Translations under genes and position numbers: made by a program | Shown here: positions 46,896-52,092 of the stretch, one piece after another | Position numbering within the stretch: the first letter of the stretch is position 1 | How the letters are laid out: every line of letters starts with the position of its first letter | DNA from: Lachnospiraceae bacterium | Lineage (GTDB): Bacteria; Bacillota; Clostridia; Lachnospirales; Lachnospiraceae | Length of the DNA stretch: 52,508 nucleotides | NCBI GenBank assembly: GCA_029338675.1 | Contig: JAQYAV010000155.1 | Coordinates: 1 to 52,508 of the forward strand | Direction of reading: 5' to 3' | Notes under the pieces: generated by a model | What the model was told of the DNA's origin: nothing | Seen by the model: the letters and a program-made list of their open reading frames with translations, nothing else | The model's database searches: none

Positions 46896-47477
46896 GTGAC
46901 AGATATAGAATTTCAACAGGCTATTATGGGAGTAGCAGCTGGCGATAAAAATTCGCTAAAACTAATCTACCAAGATTACGTAAGTATGATATACATAACA
47001 GCATACGATAAGCTTAAGAATAAAGAAAATGCGGAAGATATTACTTCTGAATTTTTTATAAAGTTAATTAGAGTGGCACCATCATTCAAACAAGGAAGTC
47101 CACATAAAGCATGGTTAATTACAATTGTAAGAAATATGTGCATTGATTTTTTAAGAAAAACAAATCGCGAGATAGCATATTCGGGTTACGAAGATGAAGA
47201 GGACGATAGAACAATAGAAGATAAGTTTGAAGAGCTGAATTTTGCTAATCGTGAGAGTAACCCAGTTGAAAATAAAATAGTATTAGCAGAAGATATGAAA
47301 AAAGCAATGACATATCTAAATGATGCTGAAAGAGAAATAATAAACATGAGACTGCTAGGTGAAATTAAATTTAAAGATATTGCAGCCCAACTTAATAAAT
47401 CTATTGGTACAGTTACATGGATATATAATCAAGGAATAAAAAAAATAAGGAGGTGTCTAAATAATTATGTCCAATAA
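46896..47477 (+). CDS. ECF-type RNA polymerase sigma factor
   Basis: 193 residues. Region 2 (about 20-90) has YITAYDKLKNKENAEDITSEFFIKL and AWLITIVRNMCIDFLRK; region 4 (about 130-190) has AEREIINMRLLGEIKFKDIAAQLNKSIGTVTWIYNQGIKKIRR. No region 3, as in ECF factors. GTG start at 46896 behind AGGAGG. The 3' end overlaps the next gene by 11 bases, the typical sigma/anti-sigma arrangement. The acidic linker (EDEEDDRTIEDKFEEL) is long. Confidence 0.92.
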   Translation: MTDIEFQQAIMGVAAGDKNSLKLIYQDYVSMIYITAYDKLKNKENAEDITSEFFIKLIRVAPSFKQGSPHKAWLITIVRNMCIDFLRKTNREIAYSGYEDEEDDRTIEDKFEELNFANRESNPVENKIVLAEDMKKAMTYLNDAEREIINMRLLGEIKFKDIAAQLNKSIGTVTWIYNQGIKKIRRCLNNYVQ

Positions 47478-48636
47478 AGAAGAAAAGATGAATGAAGAAA
47501 AAGAAATTCAATTGTTTGAAAATGAAATAAATGCATACATTAAAGCAATAGAAAAAGACACTCCTGATTTGTGGGACAAAATATCTGCTGGTTTTGATCA
47601 AGAGGTAAAGAATTTATCAAATGAGTCTAAAATAGAAAATAATCTTAACAAAGAAAATATAGATTCAAGTATTTCCACTGGTATAACTAATCAGACAGTA
47701 GCTGCCAATTCGTTAAGCAACACTAAAAGTACTACAGAAATGAGTAGTGCAGAATTTGTAAATGACCAAAGAATTAATTTTATTTCAAAGAAGAAAAAAA
47801 GGAATATAGGGCGTTTTTCATTACTTGCCGCGGCATTATTGGCAATAGTTATTGTAGTTCCTATTTTTTCTAGCATAAATAATCCAAAATCTGATAATAG
47901 TAGCAATCACATAGATGAAAAAATGTATTCAAATAGTATAGAATTGTCAAATAGCTTAGACGAATCAAAAACAGAAAATATTAATGACAAAATGGCAAAT
48001 GCTGAAGAAATTCAACAAATTGAAGATGTTGATTATTTTGATAATGATAATTCTACTGATAATAATTCTTTTGATGAAGATGGTAATGGGTATAATATTT
48101 ATAAAAAAAGATTTGAAGATTCAGAGGACAAGAATAAAAAAGATAATAAAACAGGAGCTTCTACAAGCAAAAATGACATAACAGAAAGCAAAACAACAGA
48201 AAGCAAGACAACAGAAAGCAAAACAACAGAAAGCAAGACTACAGAAAGCAAAACAACAGAAAGCAAGACTACAGAAAGTAACATAACAGAATCGTCAAAT
48301 AATAAAAGGGAAAATACAAGTAGTGAAGAAAAAGGATCTGCAAACAAAACAGAAACTAATAGTGACAAGTACGCTGATGTAGTATTTACTGTAGTATTTG
48401 AAAGTGAAAGTGCATTTTTGATACCATCTAAAATTAATAATATTCCTGAAAATATGCCACAGATTAAAGAAAATATACGATATGAATTAGTTGATTTCTT
48501 TGATTTTGAAGCAGCATATAACACAAAATATGAAGGTAGTAACTATACTGGAGAAGAAGTGTCTGGAAAAATAGAAATATTTGAGGAAGATGGTAACAAA
48601 AAATGTAGAGTAAAAGAATTTACAAAAAAAAAATAA
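47467..48636 (+). CDS. Putative membrane anti-sigma factor with TESKT repeats
   Basis: 389 residues. The cytoplasmic N-terminal part (1-112) contains TPDLWDKISAGFDQE, which resembles the sigma-binding start of anti-sigma factors. One membrane helix covers about 116-137 (FSLLAAALLAIVIVVPIF). Outside lie an Asn/Asp/Ser-rich spacer, seven five-residue TESKT-type repeats (239-273) and a small C-terminal domain (about 300-389) with YADVVFTVVFESESAF. The start overlaps the sigma gene and AAGGAGG lies inside it. The order fits a sigma regulator that senses the envelope, but I do not recognise the external domain. Confidence 0.72.
   Translation: MSNKEEKMNEEKEIQLFENEINAYIKAIEKDTPDLWDKISAGFDQEVKNLSNESKIENNLNKENIDSSISTGITNQTVAANSLSNTKSTTEMSSAEFVNDQRINFISKKKKRNIGRFSLLAAALLAIVIVVPIFSSINNPKSDNSSNHIDEKMYSNSIELSNSLDESKTENINDKMANAEEIQQIEDVDYFDNDNSTDNNSFDEDGNGYNIYKKRFEDSEDKNKKDNKTGASTSKNDITESKTTESKTTESKTTESKTTESKTTESKTTESNITESSNNKRENTSSEEKGSANKTETNSDKYADVVFTVVFESESAFLIPSKINNIPENMPQIKENIRYELVDFFDFEAAYNTKYEGSNYTGEEVSGKIEIFEEDGNKKCRVKEFTKKK
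48181..48285 (+). repeat. Seven 15-bp in-frame tandem repeats
   Basis: Seven units of ACAGAAAGCAARACW, the last diverged. The first six alternate AAA and AAG in the lysine codon, giving a 30-bp higher-order unit repeated three times. This suggests growth by copying pairs of units. Length probably varies between strains. Confidence 0.9.
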
Positions 48637-48646
48637 AGAACAATTA

Positions 48647-48690
48647 AGTAGTAAAATATTAGTGATTTAATTTTCTAGTATTTTACTACT
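48647..48690 (+). terminator. Hairpin terminator after the anti-sigma gene
   Basis: AGTAGTAAAATA (48647-48658) pairs perfectly with TATTTTACTACT (48679-48690). The T tract after it is short, so termination may be partial. Confidence 0.55.
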
Positions 48691-48718
48691 TTACTATGTG
48701 AAAGTAATTTGCTATACT
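48690..48718 (+). promoter_or_regulatory. Promoter of the GH13-like and YerC-like operon
   Basis: TTTACT (48690-48695) and TATACT (48713-48718) are spaced 17 bases. The -35 box abuts the preceding terminator stem. Confidence 0.6.
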
Positions 48719-48755
48719 TTAGGTAAATTTATGCTTAAAAATCGGAGGGGAAGAA

Positions 48756-50201
48756 ATGTCTATTAATGGAACAATAATACAATTTTTTCATGATAATGAT
48801 GATTGTGAAGAGAGTTTATGGGCATCACTAAAAAAAGAAACAACAAAACTTTCTCGCTTAGGTTTTACTGCGGCGTGGCTTCCACCAGCATTTAAGGGAG
48901 CACTAGGAGCAAAGGATGATGGTTATACTCCATATGATTTGTACGATTTAGGCGAGTATAATCAAAAGGGTACCATTTCTACAAAGTATGGTAATAAGGA
49001 AGAGTATATTGATGCAATAAAATCATTGCATCAGAAAAAAATAAACGTATACACAGAAATAGTAATTGATAAAAAACATGGGGCAGACGAAATTGAGTAT
49101 GTAGATTCAGAAGATTTTATGAAACAGGATAACTGTCAAATGGTAGGCAAGAACAAAAAAATTGTTGGTCTATCAAAATTTACATTTCCTGGTAGAAATC
49201 ATGAAGAGTCAAATTATGAATATAGCTGGAAGGATTTTTCATATATTGAATGGAACAAAGAAAAAGCAATTCATGATTTGAATAAAAACATTTCAGTAGA
49301 ACAGCTAAAAGAGTTAGACAATGGGGATTTTATTATTGGCAATAAAATAAACTACAATAACTCCAACACAAAAAAAGAATTAATTAAATGGGGACAATGG
49401 TATCAGAAAAATACAAAGCTAGATGGATTTGTTTTCGATGCTAATTATGATTTATTAAATGTATATAAAGATTTATTCGAAAACGTTCGCCATAAAATGA
49501 AAACAGACTTATTTGGTCTTACTAAAATGTGGCAATGGAATGTTGATGAGATAAAAAAATATATCGACTGTTTTGGTGGAAAAGTCAGTGCTATAGATGT
49601 TCCATTACATTACAATTTATATAATTGTTCAAAGGGACATGGTGACTATGATTTGAGAAAAATTTTTGATGGAACACTTGTAAGTGAAAGACCATATAAT
49701 GCCATTACATTTGTTGATAATAGTGACACTTTAACAGGTGGAATATTTGAGTCAACAGTAGAAGATTGGTTCAAGAAAATAGCATATTCATTGATTTTGC
49801 TTAGAAAGGATGGATATCCTGTTGTTTCATATCCGGACTATGTTGGAGAATGTGATGTTAAAAACTTCAAAAAGGATTTAGATAAAATTCTTAAATTACG
49901 TGTCGAAAAAGCTTACGGTGAGCAACATGATTATTTTGATAATCCAAATTGCATTGGTTGGACAAGAGAAGGAGTAGCTGATATAAAAGATTCTGGTATG
50001 GCAGTTGTGATTTCCGATGGAATAGGAGGAACAAAACGAATGTACATTGGAAAGCAGTTTGCAGGTGCTCATTTTTCTGATGCATTAGGAAATGCAAAAT
50101 ACAACATAAAAATAGATGATAATGGATATGGCGATTTCTATGTTAATCGTGGAGCAGTTGCTGTTTGGATTAGAAAGGAAAATAAGAAACAGGTGATTTA
50201 A
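48756..50201 (+). CDS. GH13 alpha-amylase homologue with lost catalytic residues
   Basis: 481 residues, the full length and order of a cytoplasmic GH13 subfamily-5 amylase, including GFTAAWLPPAFKG, DVPLHYNLYN, the DYDLRKIFDGTLVS block and the C-terminal GGTKRMYIGKQFAG domain. Against Bacillus liquefying amylase the four conserved regions are changed. Region I DVVINH is EIVIDK (E101, D105, K106). Region II GFRLDA is GFVFDA (V226; D228 kept). The region III acid in AEYW is TKMW (K257). Region IV DNHD is DNSD (S323). Loss of the general acid, the invariant Arg and the His should abolish hydrolysis, so this may be a glucan-binding or regulatory protein. Coupled to the YerC-like gene. GGAGGGGAAG precedes the ATG. 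Confidence 0.88.
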   Translation: MSINGTIIQFFHDNDDCEESLWASLKKETTKLSRLGFTAAWLPPAFKGALGAKDDGYTPYDLYDLGEYNQKGTISTKYGNKEEYIDAIKSLHQKKINVYTEIVIDKKHGADEIEYVDSEDFMKQDNCQMVGKNKKIVGLSKFTFPGRNHEESNYEYSWKDFSYIEWNKEKAIHDLNKNISVEQLKELDNGDFIIGNKINYNNSNTKKELIKWGQWYQKNTKLDGFVFDANYDLLNVYKDLFENVRHKMKTDLFGLTKMWQWNVDEIKKYIDCFGGKVSAIDVPLHYNLYNCSKGHGDYDLRKIFDGTLVSERPYNAITFVDNSDTLTGGIFESTVEDWFKKIAYSLILLRKDGYPVVSYPDYVGECDVKNFKKDLDKILKLRVEKAYGEQHDYFDNPNCIGWTREGVADIKDSGMAVVISDGIGGTKRMYIGKQFAGAHFSDALGNAKYNIKIDDNGYGDFYVNRGAVAVWIRKENKKQVI

Positions 50202-50497
50202 TGGGAAAGACAATAAGAACAGATGCTGTAAAAGAATTTTTTGAGGCAGTTTTGTCTCTTGAAAATGTAGATGAATGTTTTGACTTTTTTGAAGATGTAT
50301 GCACAGTAAATGAAGTGCTATCAATTGCACAGAGATTTTCAGTTGCAAAAATGTTAAAGGAAAATCATACATATTTAGAAGTTGCAAAAGAAACTGGCGC
50401 TTCTACTGCAACGATAAGTAGAGTTAATCGTTCATTGAATTATGGAAATGATGGTTATGAAATGGTGTTAGCTAGACTTAAGGAAAAACAGAAATAG
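50201..50497 (+). CDS. YerC/YecD-type TrpR-like regulator
   Basis: 98 residues. The protein has a TrpR-superfamily helix-turn-helix: VCTVNEVLSIAQRFSVAKML, then YLEVAKETGASTATISRVNRSLNYGNDGYEMVL. This matches the YerC/YecD family of unknown target. The ATG shares a base with the stop of the amylase-like gene, so translation is coupled. There is no link to the trp operon in the sequence beyond the shared fold. Confidence 0.9.
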   Translation: MGKTIRTDAVKEFFEAVLSLENVDECFDFFEDVCTVNEVLSIAQRFSVAKMLKENHTYLEVAKETGASTATISRVNRSLNYGNDGYEMVLARLKEKQK

Positions 50498-50844: not shown

Positions 50845-52092
50845 TTAATGTTTTGCGAAGTCAATTTGCATAATGCTGTTGGAAGCTCCGTCTTCAGTTA
50901 GATAAAAACCAGAGCTTTGTATTCTAGCAAGTGATGAATTCGCATTATCTTTAATATCATAATTTGTAACGCAATTTTTTAAGAAAATTGCTCCAACATT
51001 CGCTTCTTTAAGAGTAAGCAAAATATCATCGCCTGAGTCATTCTTTTTCCATACTTTTAAGTTATCATAAATTATGTCATTTTCATCAATCCATCCATTT
51101 TGATCAATATCATAATTACTCAAATCTTGAAAGCCGTTCCCCGATGCAGTACCAAATAATTCAGAACCATCATTAATTACTCCATCATTATTCTTGTCAT
51201 AAACAAGAAAAGCACTGCCTTTTTTTAGTAAAGGGATAGTATCTAAATGACCATCTGAATCAATGTCAAATGACCAAAACTGATCACTAACTCCTGTTGG
51301 ATTAGAATCAAGATTAATTACAAGTGGATCGGTGAATAGAACTTCAATTGACTCATATTCTTCAATAGAAGAGTACGCAAAAGAATTAGACATATCCAAA
51401 GAAATACTAAAGTCAATTGATTTTCCGTCTTTTGTAATAACAGTACCTGTAGAATCAAATATTAAAGAATGTTTTTCATCGTATGAAAATTCAACATAAT
51501 TATGTCTTTTCCAAACATTTATATTATTATTTGTAAATGATGAGTTGGTAGATTGCAATGAAAGAAAATGATTATTCTTTGTATTTGATGTTCTACTTAA
51601 AAAAGATATCTGATCATGAATAAACAAAATATATTTTCGAAGTTCATTTACAAAATATTGCTGTGTGGATAAATTATTTGAATTACTTTGCAATATAGAT
51701 AAATTCTTATTAATCCTATTATTTGAATAATTTATGTAAGTTACAGGTAAATTAATTTGGCTTTTTTGCGACAACGGTAAAAAGTTAATAATTTTTTCGT
51801 TAGAATTGTTTGGTATAGTATTATTTTCGATTTTGGGATTACTATTGTTAAAATAGTATTTCTTGTTATCGGAAATTGAACTAGTAACACTATTAATTTT
51901 TTTTGATGTTGATTTGATACCAATATCAGAATTAAAATTTTTAATTCTGTTCAATTGTTCTTTGTTCGTATAAGTTGATTTGATACCAATATCTGAATTA
52001 AAATTTTTAGTTTGCGAAATAACATTATTTCCATATGAAATGGACGATGTGCTCTTAGAACACATATTAACTGAACTTGTACATATCCTCAT
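50845..52092 (-). CDS. Repeat-containing protein with calcium-binding-like C terminus
   Basis: 415 residues, no signal peptide or membrane helix visible. Residues 1-200 are Asn/Ser-rich and include two copies of KNFNSDIGIKST (about 29-40 and 52-63). The C-terminal half (about 235-415) has acidic loops: DIDSDGHLD, DKNNDGVINDGSELFG and DIDQNGWIDENDI. The DxNxDGxIxDxxELFG form occurs in calcium-binding, RTX- or EF-hand-like modules of large surface proteins. ATG at 52092 follows AGGAGG. Function unknown; a surface or secreted protein exported by a non-Sec route is possible. Confidence 0.75.
   Translation of the reverse strand: MRICTSSVNMCSKSTSSISYGNNVISQTKNFNSDIGIKSTYTNKEQLNRIKNFNSDIGIKSTSKKINSVTSSISDNKKYYFNNSNPKIENNTIPNNSNEKIINFLPLSQKSQINLPVTYINYSNNRINKNLSILQSNSNNLSTQQYFVNELRKYILFIHDQISFLSRTSNTKNNHFLSLQSTNSSFTNNNINVWKRHNYVEFSYDEKHSLIFDSTGTVITKDGKSIDFSISLDMSNSFAYSSIEEYESIEVLFTDPLVINLDSNPTGVSDQFWSFDIDSDGHLDTIPLLKKGSAFLVYDKNNDGVINDGSELFGTASGNGFQDLSNYDIDQNGWIDENDIIYDNLKVWKKNDSGDDILLTLKEANVGAIFLKNCVTNYDIKDNANSSLARIQSSGFYLTEDGASNSIMQIDFAKH
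51909..52008 (-). repeat. Direct DNA repeat inside the Asn/Ser-rich protein gene
   Basis: A segment of about 35 bases starting GTTGATTTGATACCAATATC occurs at 51909 and again at 51974, 65 bases apart, with a single A/T change in the first 34 positions. The spacing is not a multiple of three on its own; the encoded repeats lie 23 codons apart (69 bases) because the matching windows differ in offset or include local indels, so register should be checked. Confidence 0.55.

Follow-up and report, generated by a model that had tools for sequence, protein, structure and literature searches.

A GH13_5 amylase homologue with a decayed active site stays under purifying selection directly upstream of hisR in a Lachnospiraceae bacterium

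Why should a bacterium keep a full-length amylase gene in which most of the catalytic residues have been replaced? The question is raised by a 52,508-nt stretch of Lachnospiraceae DNA (contig JAQYAV010000155.1), here called the window, whose own genome is referred to as G000. An ORF at 48756-50201 on the forward strand starts with ATG, is open throughout and encodes 481 amino acids, which are matched by the NCBIfam profile NF006969 (alpha-amylase) with E 1.2e-143, above cut-off, and of which only the C-terminal domain is detected by Pfam. The ORF downstream (50201-50497) encodes 98 amino acids and matches TIGR02531 (yecD_yerC; E 3.3e-41, 139.6 bits against a cut-off of 42.2). The original prediction for this locus had described the first gene as a GH13 pseudo-amylase that is maintained by selection, overlaps the start of a YerC-type regulator gene and may act as a glucan sensor or partner controlling that regulator.

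The features of the gene pair, named amy and hisR hereafter, are collected in Table 1. Two neighbouring genes were also noticed. Directly after an ECF-type sigma factor gene (46896-47477), and ending about 120 bases before amy, a gene at 47467-48636 encodes a protein of 389 aa that contains a single membrane-like segment and a stretch of TTESK repeats and has no Pfam match; it may be an anti-sigma protein, or be linked to the sigma factor in another way, with a stalk of low complexity. On the reverse strand, positions 50845-52092 encode a protein of 415 aa whose N-terminal segment is repeated (KNFNSDIGIKST) and whose C-terminal half is rich in DxDxDG and resembles EF-hands; its Pfam matches were sub-threshold only.

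Table 1. Positions of the features of the amy-hisR locus in the window.
Feature	Position	Strand	Basis
Possible replacement operator: a further near-palindrome of HisR type, TACTTTA-N6-GAAAGTA, that overlaps the -35 and has 3 mismatches	48687..48706	+	Weak alone, shuffle p 0.04
Promoter of sigma-70 type: -35 TTTACT (48690-48695), 17-nt spacer, extended -10 TGcTATACT	48690..48718	+	Pattern scan; 31 other genus members have this -35/-10 arrangement before amy
Ancestral HisR operator site, immediately following the -10; the left half is retained and the right half degraded, with 6 mismatches to consensus	48715..48734	+	Comparison with genus
Shine-Dalgarno GGAGGGG	48744..48750	+	Sequence
amy, GH13_5 pseudo-amylase, 481 aa; sole match of its kind in G000	48756..50201	+	Profiles, PDB alignments
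Residues 1-100, N-terminal part of barrel (domain A); 37/43 near-invariant positions kept	48756..49055	+	
Residues 101-205, region I and domain B with former calcium site; 24/51 near-invariant positions kept; omega 10.5x background	49056..49370	+	
Residues 206-390, second barrel part including V226, D228, K257, S323, D324; 49/72 near-invariant positions kept; omega 7.5x background	49371..49925	+	
Residues 391-476, domain C; 41/43 near-invariant and 17/17 hisR-linked-clade-specific positions kept	49926..50183	+	
Four extra codons (KQVI) from the place of the genus relatives' stop codon	50187..50198	+	By eye
TAATG, one-base overlap of amy stop and hisR start	50199..50203	+	
hisR (yerC), TrpR-family histidine repressor, 98 aa	50201..50497	+	TIGR02531; HisR identity from PMC9413887

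PDB alignments to Bacillus amylases (6toy, 6ag0, 1hvx, 1bli; E about 1e-112) confirmed every residue register that had been predicted for the intact frame (ExxxDK, Val226, Lys257, Ser323, Asp228, Asp324), and the overlap with the YerC-type gene was found as described, with one shared base in TAATG. Region I (101-106) reads EIVIDK, Lys106 taking the place of its His; V226 stands for the region II Arg, K257 for the general acid Glu and S323 for the region IV His. The nucleophile D228 and the region IV Asp, the stabiliser D324, are both kept, leaving the GH13_5 catalytic Asp-Glu-Asp triad with its region II Arg and regions I/IV His incomplete. The places of BLA Asn104, Asp200, Asp202 and Asp204 are occupied by Asp105, Lys197, Asn199 and Asn201, with BLA Asp194 kept as Asp191; these five BLA residues are ligands of the calcium site between domains A and B. 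Compared with the Bacillus-type enzymes, the window protein accordingly has neither the acid, the region II Arg and the His of regions I and IV nor most calcium ligands, yet it has the sequence and fold of GH13_5 domains A, B and C. Such a protein would probably not hydrolyse alpha-1,4-glucan. On the barrel, residues of surface-binding sites are kept according to the alignment (BLA Phe257 as F253, BLA Tyr358 as Y354), and so presumably is BHA Trp347, as W338; the BHA Trp439/Trp469 site presumably falls on Arg428/Tyr458. Surface-binding sites on GH13_5 enzymes are described in PMC8467227. A new fold in domain C was rejected, as a 91-residue model of it matches the ordinary GH13_5 domain C. Inspection by eye revealed no signal peptide in the amylase of the genus, which is therefore probably cytoplasmic.

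An orthologue is found in 36 of the 37 genomes of the genus, the exception (G017, 87% complete) having no amy match; in G013 and G033 a second piece of match was also seen, and the frame of G033 runs off the contig end. Catalytic residues are intact in 33 of the 36; besides the window, the exceptions are two sister genomes, G015 and G024, in which the acid Glu is changed to Asp, the stabiliser Asp to Glu, and regions I and II are altered. The expectation that orthologues would share both the substitutions and the yerC linkage was thus half borne out: the linkage is common to the genus, but the window substitutions are peculiar to G000. The window protein is 51-56% identical to the genus members, which average 82% among themselves. 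At the junction, amy stop and hisR start are separated by 10 to 46 bases in the 34 other members that could be measured (11 bases in 18 of them; 10-15 in 29 and 19-46 in five). Where the relatives have their stop codon the window has AAA, so that the frame continues for four codons (junctions compared by eye), and the one-base overlap is derived within the genus. Outside it, the same overlap occurs in six loci (L042, L049, L055, L058, L069, L075); as the active site is intact in four of these, the overlap is no mark of a pseudoenzyme.

The G000 amylase branch has accumulated 1.45 substitutions per residue, with all other tips below 0.2, and a branch codon model gave a dN of 0.35 on it against 0.03-0.05 on the other tips, at a background omega of 0.023. 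Because dS is saturated on this branch, with the free fit reaching its bound, omega can be given only as a range, namely 0.76, 0.37, 0.12 and 0.06 for an assumed dS of 0.5, 1, 3 and 6, respectively, with the likelihood rising with dS. Omega = 1 is nevertheless rejected (lnL -9987.19 with free time versus -9940.06). The tips of G015 (L081/L156) and G024 (L030/L155), both without a HisR operator before amy, are less saturated (dS 0.72 and 0.58) and have an omega of 0.05. A generally fast genome was rejected as the cause of the long branch, since rpoB of G000 is ordinary in identity, at 91% to that of its nearest relative G006, although dS on the rpoB branch (0.86) is above that on the other tips tested (0.29-0.78). 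When the intact gene of G006 was allowed to drift neutrally to the same identity in 200 simulation runs, 23.6 stops were expected on average and at least 15 in any run, and none is observed. With stops forbidden, 34.5 polar residues (minimum 23) were expected at 175 always-hydrophobic columns, against 14 observed, and at most 160 of 273 invariant columns were kept, against 188 observed; as all divergence counts as neutral in the simulation, and its starting point is a living relative instead of the true ancestor, with no earlier constrained phase, the neutral part is somewhat overstated in these figures. The gene fits well neither with a dead pseudogene nor with a frame kept open only for translation. 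With an unbroken frame and non-neutral evolution it lacks the marks of a pseudogene, and its product, with catalytic residues lost and fold and selection retained, has those of a GH13 pseudoenzyme.

Selection is unevenly spread over the protein. With the branch time fixed at one value for four parts, the ratio of G000 omega to background was 3.1 for residues 1-100, 10.5 for 101-205, 7.5 for 206-390 and 2.2 for 391-476, and the corresponding likelihood ratio statistics were 21.5, 94.2, 100.2 and 3.4, only the last, that of domain C, being not significant. Fourfold synonymous divergence is alike in the four regions (0.47-0.53 in 86 close pairs), so that the constraint lies on the protein and not on the DNA; a hidden hisR promoter or leader in the 3' part is not supported. 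Neither is recent recombination of the 3' part, for the fourfold divergence of G000 from all relatives is 0.671 in domain C and 0.663 in residues 206-390, with single relatives down to 0.52 in domain C. Together with the absence of stops, the rejection of omega = 1 and the simulation, the regional omega upholds the predicted retention by selection of a protein that has lost its catalytic machinery.

The same results bear on the alternative that the protein is useless and its frame open only for the sake of hisR, which would depend on the amy promoter for its transcription and on ribosomes translating amy to reach its start. Polarity of this kind would exclude stops and frameshifts, and it would suit both the HisR-type promoter before amy and the little room that the short junctions of the genus, and the overlap in the window, leave for a promoter of hisR itself. 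It predicts, however, that amino acids change neutrally, but the hydrophobic core and the invariant positions are kept above the neutral simulation without stops, and domain C combines a near-background omega with ordinary synonymous divergence; polarity on its own is therefore regarded as unlikely.

Decay of the active site recurs among the relatives. From 82 loci, L072-L074 (<440 residues) were dropped for the domain tests, which left 79 rows, 69 of them distinct; the 10 duplicate rows are still counted in the 79-row tallies (near-invariant positions, upstream HisR sites, domain-loss cells). This set was seeded with the window protein and is no random sample of the family, and most of the named records are MAGs; L036, Lachnospiraceae bacterium C6A11, has the amy-hisR pair and carries no MAG label. 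Degenerate active sites occur in 9 of the 69 distinct orthologues of at least 440 residues. A tree of 96 sequences, a few of whose outgroup rows (L114/L041, L116/L037) appear to be the same as main rows, unites the hisR-linked enzymes in one clade with a support of 100, which also holds L034 (Eubacterium ruminantium) and L080, for both of which hisR was not found in the DNA examined, L080 ending at a contig end. The nine degenerate sequences stand at about eight places, all inside this clade and most beside intact sisters, on branches longer than those of the sisters (0.91 for the window), which suggests about eight independent events. Five are clear by chemistry: the window; L048, L057 and L062, in which the nucleophile is changed to Ala, Glu and Ser, respectively; and L075, with the acid changed to Ala. 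Decay is probable for G015 with G024 and for L063, and L058 is a mild case, with only the region I His changed to Arg.

A family survey of 250 genomes from 249 genera, closer to a random sample than the seeded set, yielded GH13_5 at E 1e-100 or better in 32 genomes, 30 of which were examined as loci. Eight of these are hisR-linked and 22 unlinked, and both degenerate ones (the window and the L062 genome) are linked; unlinked here means no hisR within the DNA examined, which is at most 1.5 kb downstream for survey loci, 365 bases for L123 and 444 bases for L126. The contrast between linked and unlinked enzymes, with decay confined to the former, is suggestive. Replacement by a second copy was rejected: G000 has no second GH13_5 match, with other GH13 subfamilies present, and each of the eight other degenerate genomes has one strong GH13_5 match, the remaining matches being at E 1e-9 or weaker. 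Loss of glycogen metabolism was likewise rejected as a cause, as G000 has full-length matches to glycogen synthase and glycogen phosphorylase. Three further records deserve mention: L043, titled Bacteroides sp., has an amylase identical to that of the genus member L023, so the label looks wrong; in G118 there are six close matches to GH13_5, in long frames of 649-882 aa, compared with a single match elsewhere; and the unlinked homologues L067, L073 and L074 are apparently broken copies, their match being spread across two or three frames, whereas the degenerate copies linked to hisR have open frames.

When the catalytic positions and their three neighbours on each side are set aside, the nine degenerate sequences together have lost 7 of 387 near-invariant cells in domain C, versus 137 of 1251 elsewhere. 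The intact rows have lost 37 of 3010 and 66 of 9730, respectively, so that by this measure domain C is not generally the quieter part. Taken singly, three of the nine differ significantly between the regions, and L063 runs against the trend, with 4 of 43 cells lost in domain C and 11 of 139 elsewhere. Domain C of the hisR-linked clade is also peculiar in its intact members. In two identity bands matched over residues 1-390, with L034 and L080 left out of both groups, the ratio of the distance in domain C to that in residues 206-390 is 0.60 and 0.53 for the linked clade, as opposed to 1.20 and 1.44 (104 and 13 pairs) for 24 unlinked amylases. Positions conserved only in the linked clade number 17 in the 84 residues of domain C and 18 in the other 390 (p 1.2e-5); G000 keeps all 17 of the former and 11 of the latter, and the other degenerate copies keep 13 to 17 of the 17.

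The second gene is, judged by its profile, that of HisR, a TrpR-family histidine repressor. According to PMC9413887, HisR is the product of yerC in B. subtilis, its operators read cacTTTAnnnnnnTAAAgtg, and the HisR of Ruminococcus gnavus requires L-histidine for DNA binding; amylase is mentioned zero times in the main text of that source. HisR thus described and the window neighbour share the TIGR02531 assignment, and palindromes of HisR type lie before amy in the genus and, weakly, before hisZ in G000. Of the 36 genus members, 33 have a site with at most 3 mismatches within 130 nt upstream of amy, and under a lax rule 32 of these sites overlap a promoter-like element. Directly after the -10 such a site is found in 32 of 36, the others being the window (6 mismatches), G015 (8), G024 (9) and G031, where the contig ends 101 bases upstream; decay of active site and operator hence coincides in both events of the genus. 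With an operator, recognised by its motif, inside the promoter, the amylase would probably belong to the histidine regulon, provided that HisR binds there. Outside the genus 10 of 33 loci have a site with at most 3 mismatches within 250 nt upstream of amy, and the putative link to histidine control is well supported for the genus only. At least in the genus, the amylase thus appears to lie between a HisR-controlled promoter and hisR.

Pattern searches were less telling. The promoter scan gave 7 promoter-like sites in the stretch versus 14.8 expected from shuffles and proves nothing alone; HisR sites by pattern alone were uninformative in G000, where 198 were counted against 247 for the reversed pattern, without genome-wide enrichment. 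The sites before amy and before hisZ have 3 mismatches each, neither being significant alone. The latter is a near-palindrome, AACTTTAGTGCAATGAAGTA, about 70 nt before hisZ of an apparent hisZ-hisG-hisD-hisB operon (L154 on contig C61; hisD by profile, its neighbours by eye); its right half resembles the site before amy, and the operator consensus may have drifted in the G000 lineage. The best match to the HisR consensus in the genome, with 1 mismatch, lies at position 1501 of L143 (contig C89) and precedes a gene which by eye is glutamate dehydrogenase-like, either by chance or as part of an extended regulon. Among hisR copies away from the amylase, 18 of 28 have a HisR site within 250 nt upstream of hisR itself, a count made without a shuffle control.

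A second alternative is that the gene is half way through a slow pseudogenisation, the amylase being dispensable and the barrel decaying, and domain C being kept through early folding or through protection from a misfolded product. The long branches of the degenerate copies would fit this, as would the slipped stop codon of the window, the operators decayed in all three degenerate members of the genus and the broken copies among unlinked relatives (L067, L073, L074). Against it stand a window gene free of stops and frameshifts after a divergence for which at least 15 stops are expected, about eight parallel cases that keep the frame, and a domain C already unusually constrained in the intact hisR-linked enzymes; we consider slow decay improbable to a similar degree as polarity.

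That the protein is a glucan-binding sensor or physical partner controlling YerC/HisR, as first proposed, is not supported and seems very unlikely. The conserved adjacency with hisR and the kept surface-site residues F253, Y354 and W338 would favour it, but the linkage is ancestral and common to enzymes with an active site, the residues of the catalytic cleft are gone and the Trp pair of BHA is presumably replaced. HisR moreover responds to histidine (PMC9413887), and only one of its residues, at position 43, is near-fixed in amylase-linked genomes only (unlinked group: 25 of 28, L182-L184 left out), so that a partner surface on HisR was rejected. An altered instead of a lost catalysis, in which the retained Asp228 and Asp324 serve a new reaction or substrate, is hardly credible, since Arg, acid and most calcium ligands are gone together from the window protein and other degenerate copies (L048, L057, L062) have lost the nucleophile instead.

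We therefore lean, with some reserve, towards reading the window protein as a pseudoenzyme that is maintained for a non-catalytic role in which domain C is central. In this explanation amy would be the first gene of a two-gene amy-hisR operon, the product of which in most genus members would be a GH13_5 alpha-amylase with a HisR-type operator in its promoter. In the window lineage the active site and most of the calcium site would have decayed, and purifying selection would have continued to act on the frame, on the fold and most of all on the C-terminal beta-sandwich (domain C), because a second, non-catalytic function, located mainly in domain C and older than the catalytic loss, would keep the gene. 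Possible roles are glucan tethering (the surface-site residues on the barrel are kept), protein binding or stabilisation of a complex; domain C may also be kept simply for the stability of the folded protein. More tentative, and on balance doubtful, is an extension to the whole clade: captured by the operon of the histidine repressor, it would have gained a non-catalytic function on a remodelled domain C (GNAKYNIKIDD-G-G-FYVNR), catalysis would have become dispensable and been lost repeatedly in genes without a close duplicate, and the whole amylase would have turned into a scaffold or regulator linked to histidine metabolism.

The nearest counterparts of the window protein are the intact hisR-linked GH13_5 enzymes of Lachnospiraceae (e.g., L032, L036, L042, L071), which are orthologous, share the clade-specific domain C and, as all hisR-linked rows, have hisR directly downstream, but keep the catalytic residues that the window protein has lost. 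GH13-fold proteins without demonstrated catalysis that are retained for other roles are described in plants (isoamylase ISA2; PMC12510319) and mammals (rBAT/4F2hc; PMC8537225), and in vertebrate rBAT homologues other conserved regions outlast the catalytic residues (PMC8537225). As described there, ISA2 is a paralogue beside an active ISA1, whereas no further strong GH13_5 match was found in the window genome or in those of the other decayed copies, and here several hisR-linked orthologues have undergone the loss in parallel; 4F2hc/rBAT are membrane-bound subunits, unlike the window protein. Among the titles listed in searches of the open literature there was no bacterial GH13 protein without known catalysis, and no paper was found there on HisR together with an amylase in Lachnospiraceae.

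As the NCBIfam profile calls the window protein an alpha-amylase above its cut-off, glycogen metabolism can be wrongly reconstructed for such genomes. The hisR-linked clade offers a natural series of about eight apparently parallel losses, mostly with intact sisters alongside, in orthologues that have no close duplicate, and this series lets one ask what role the amylase has beyond cutting glucan, and why it stands before a histidine repressor.
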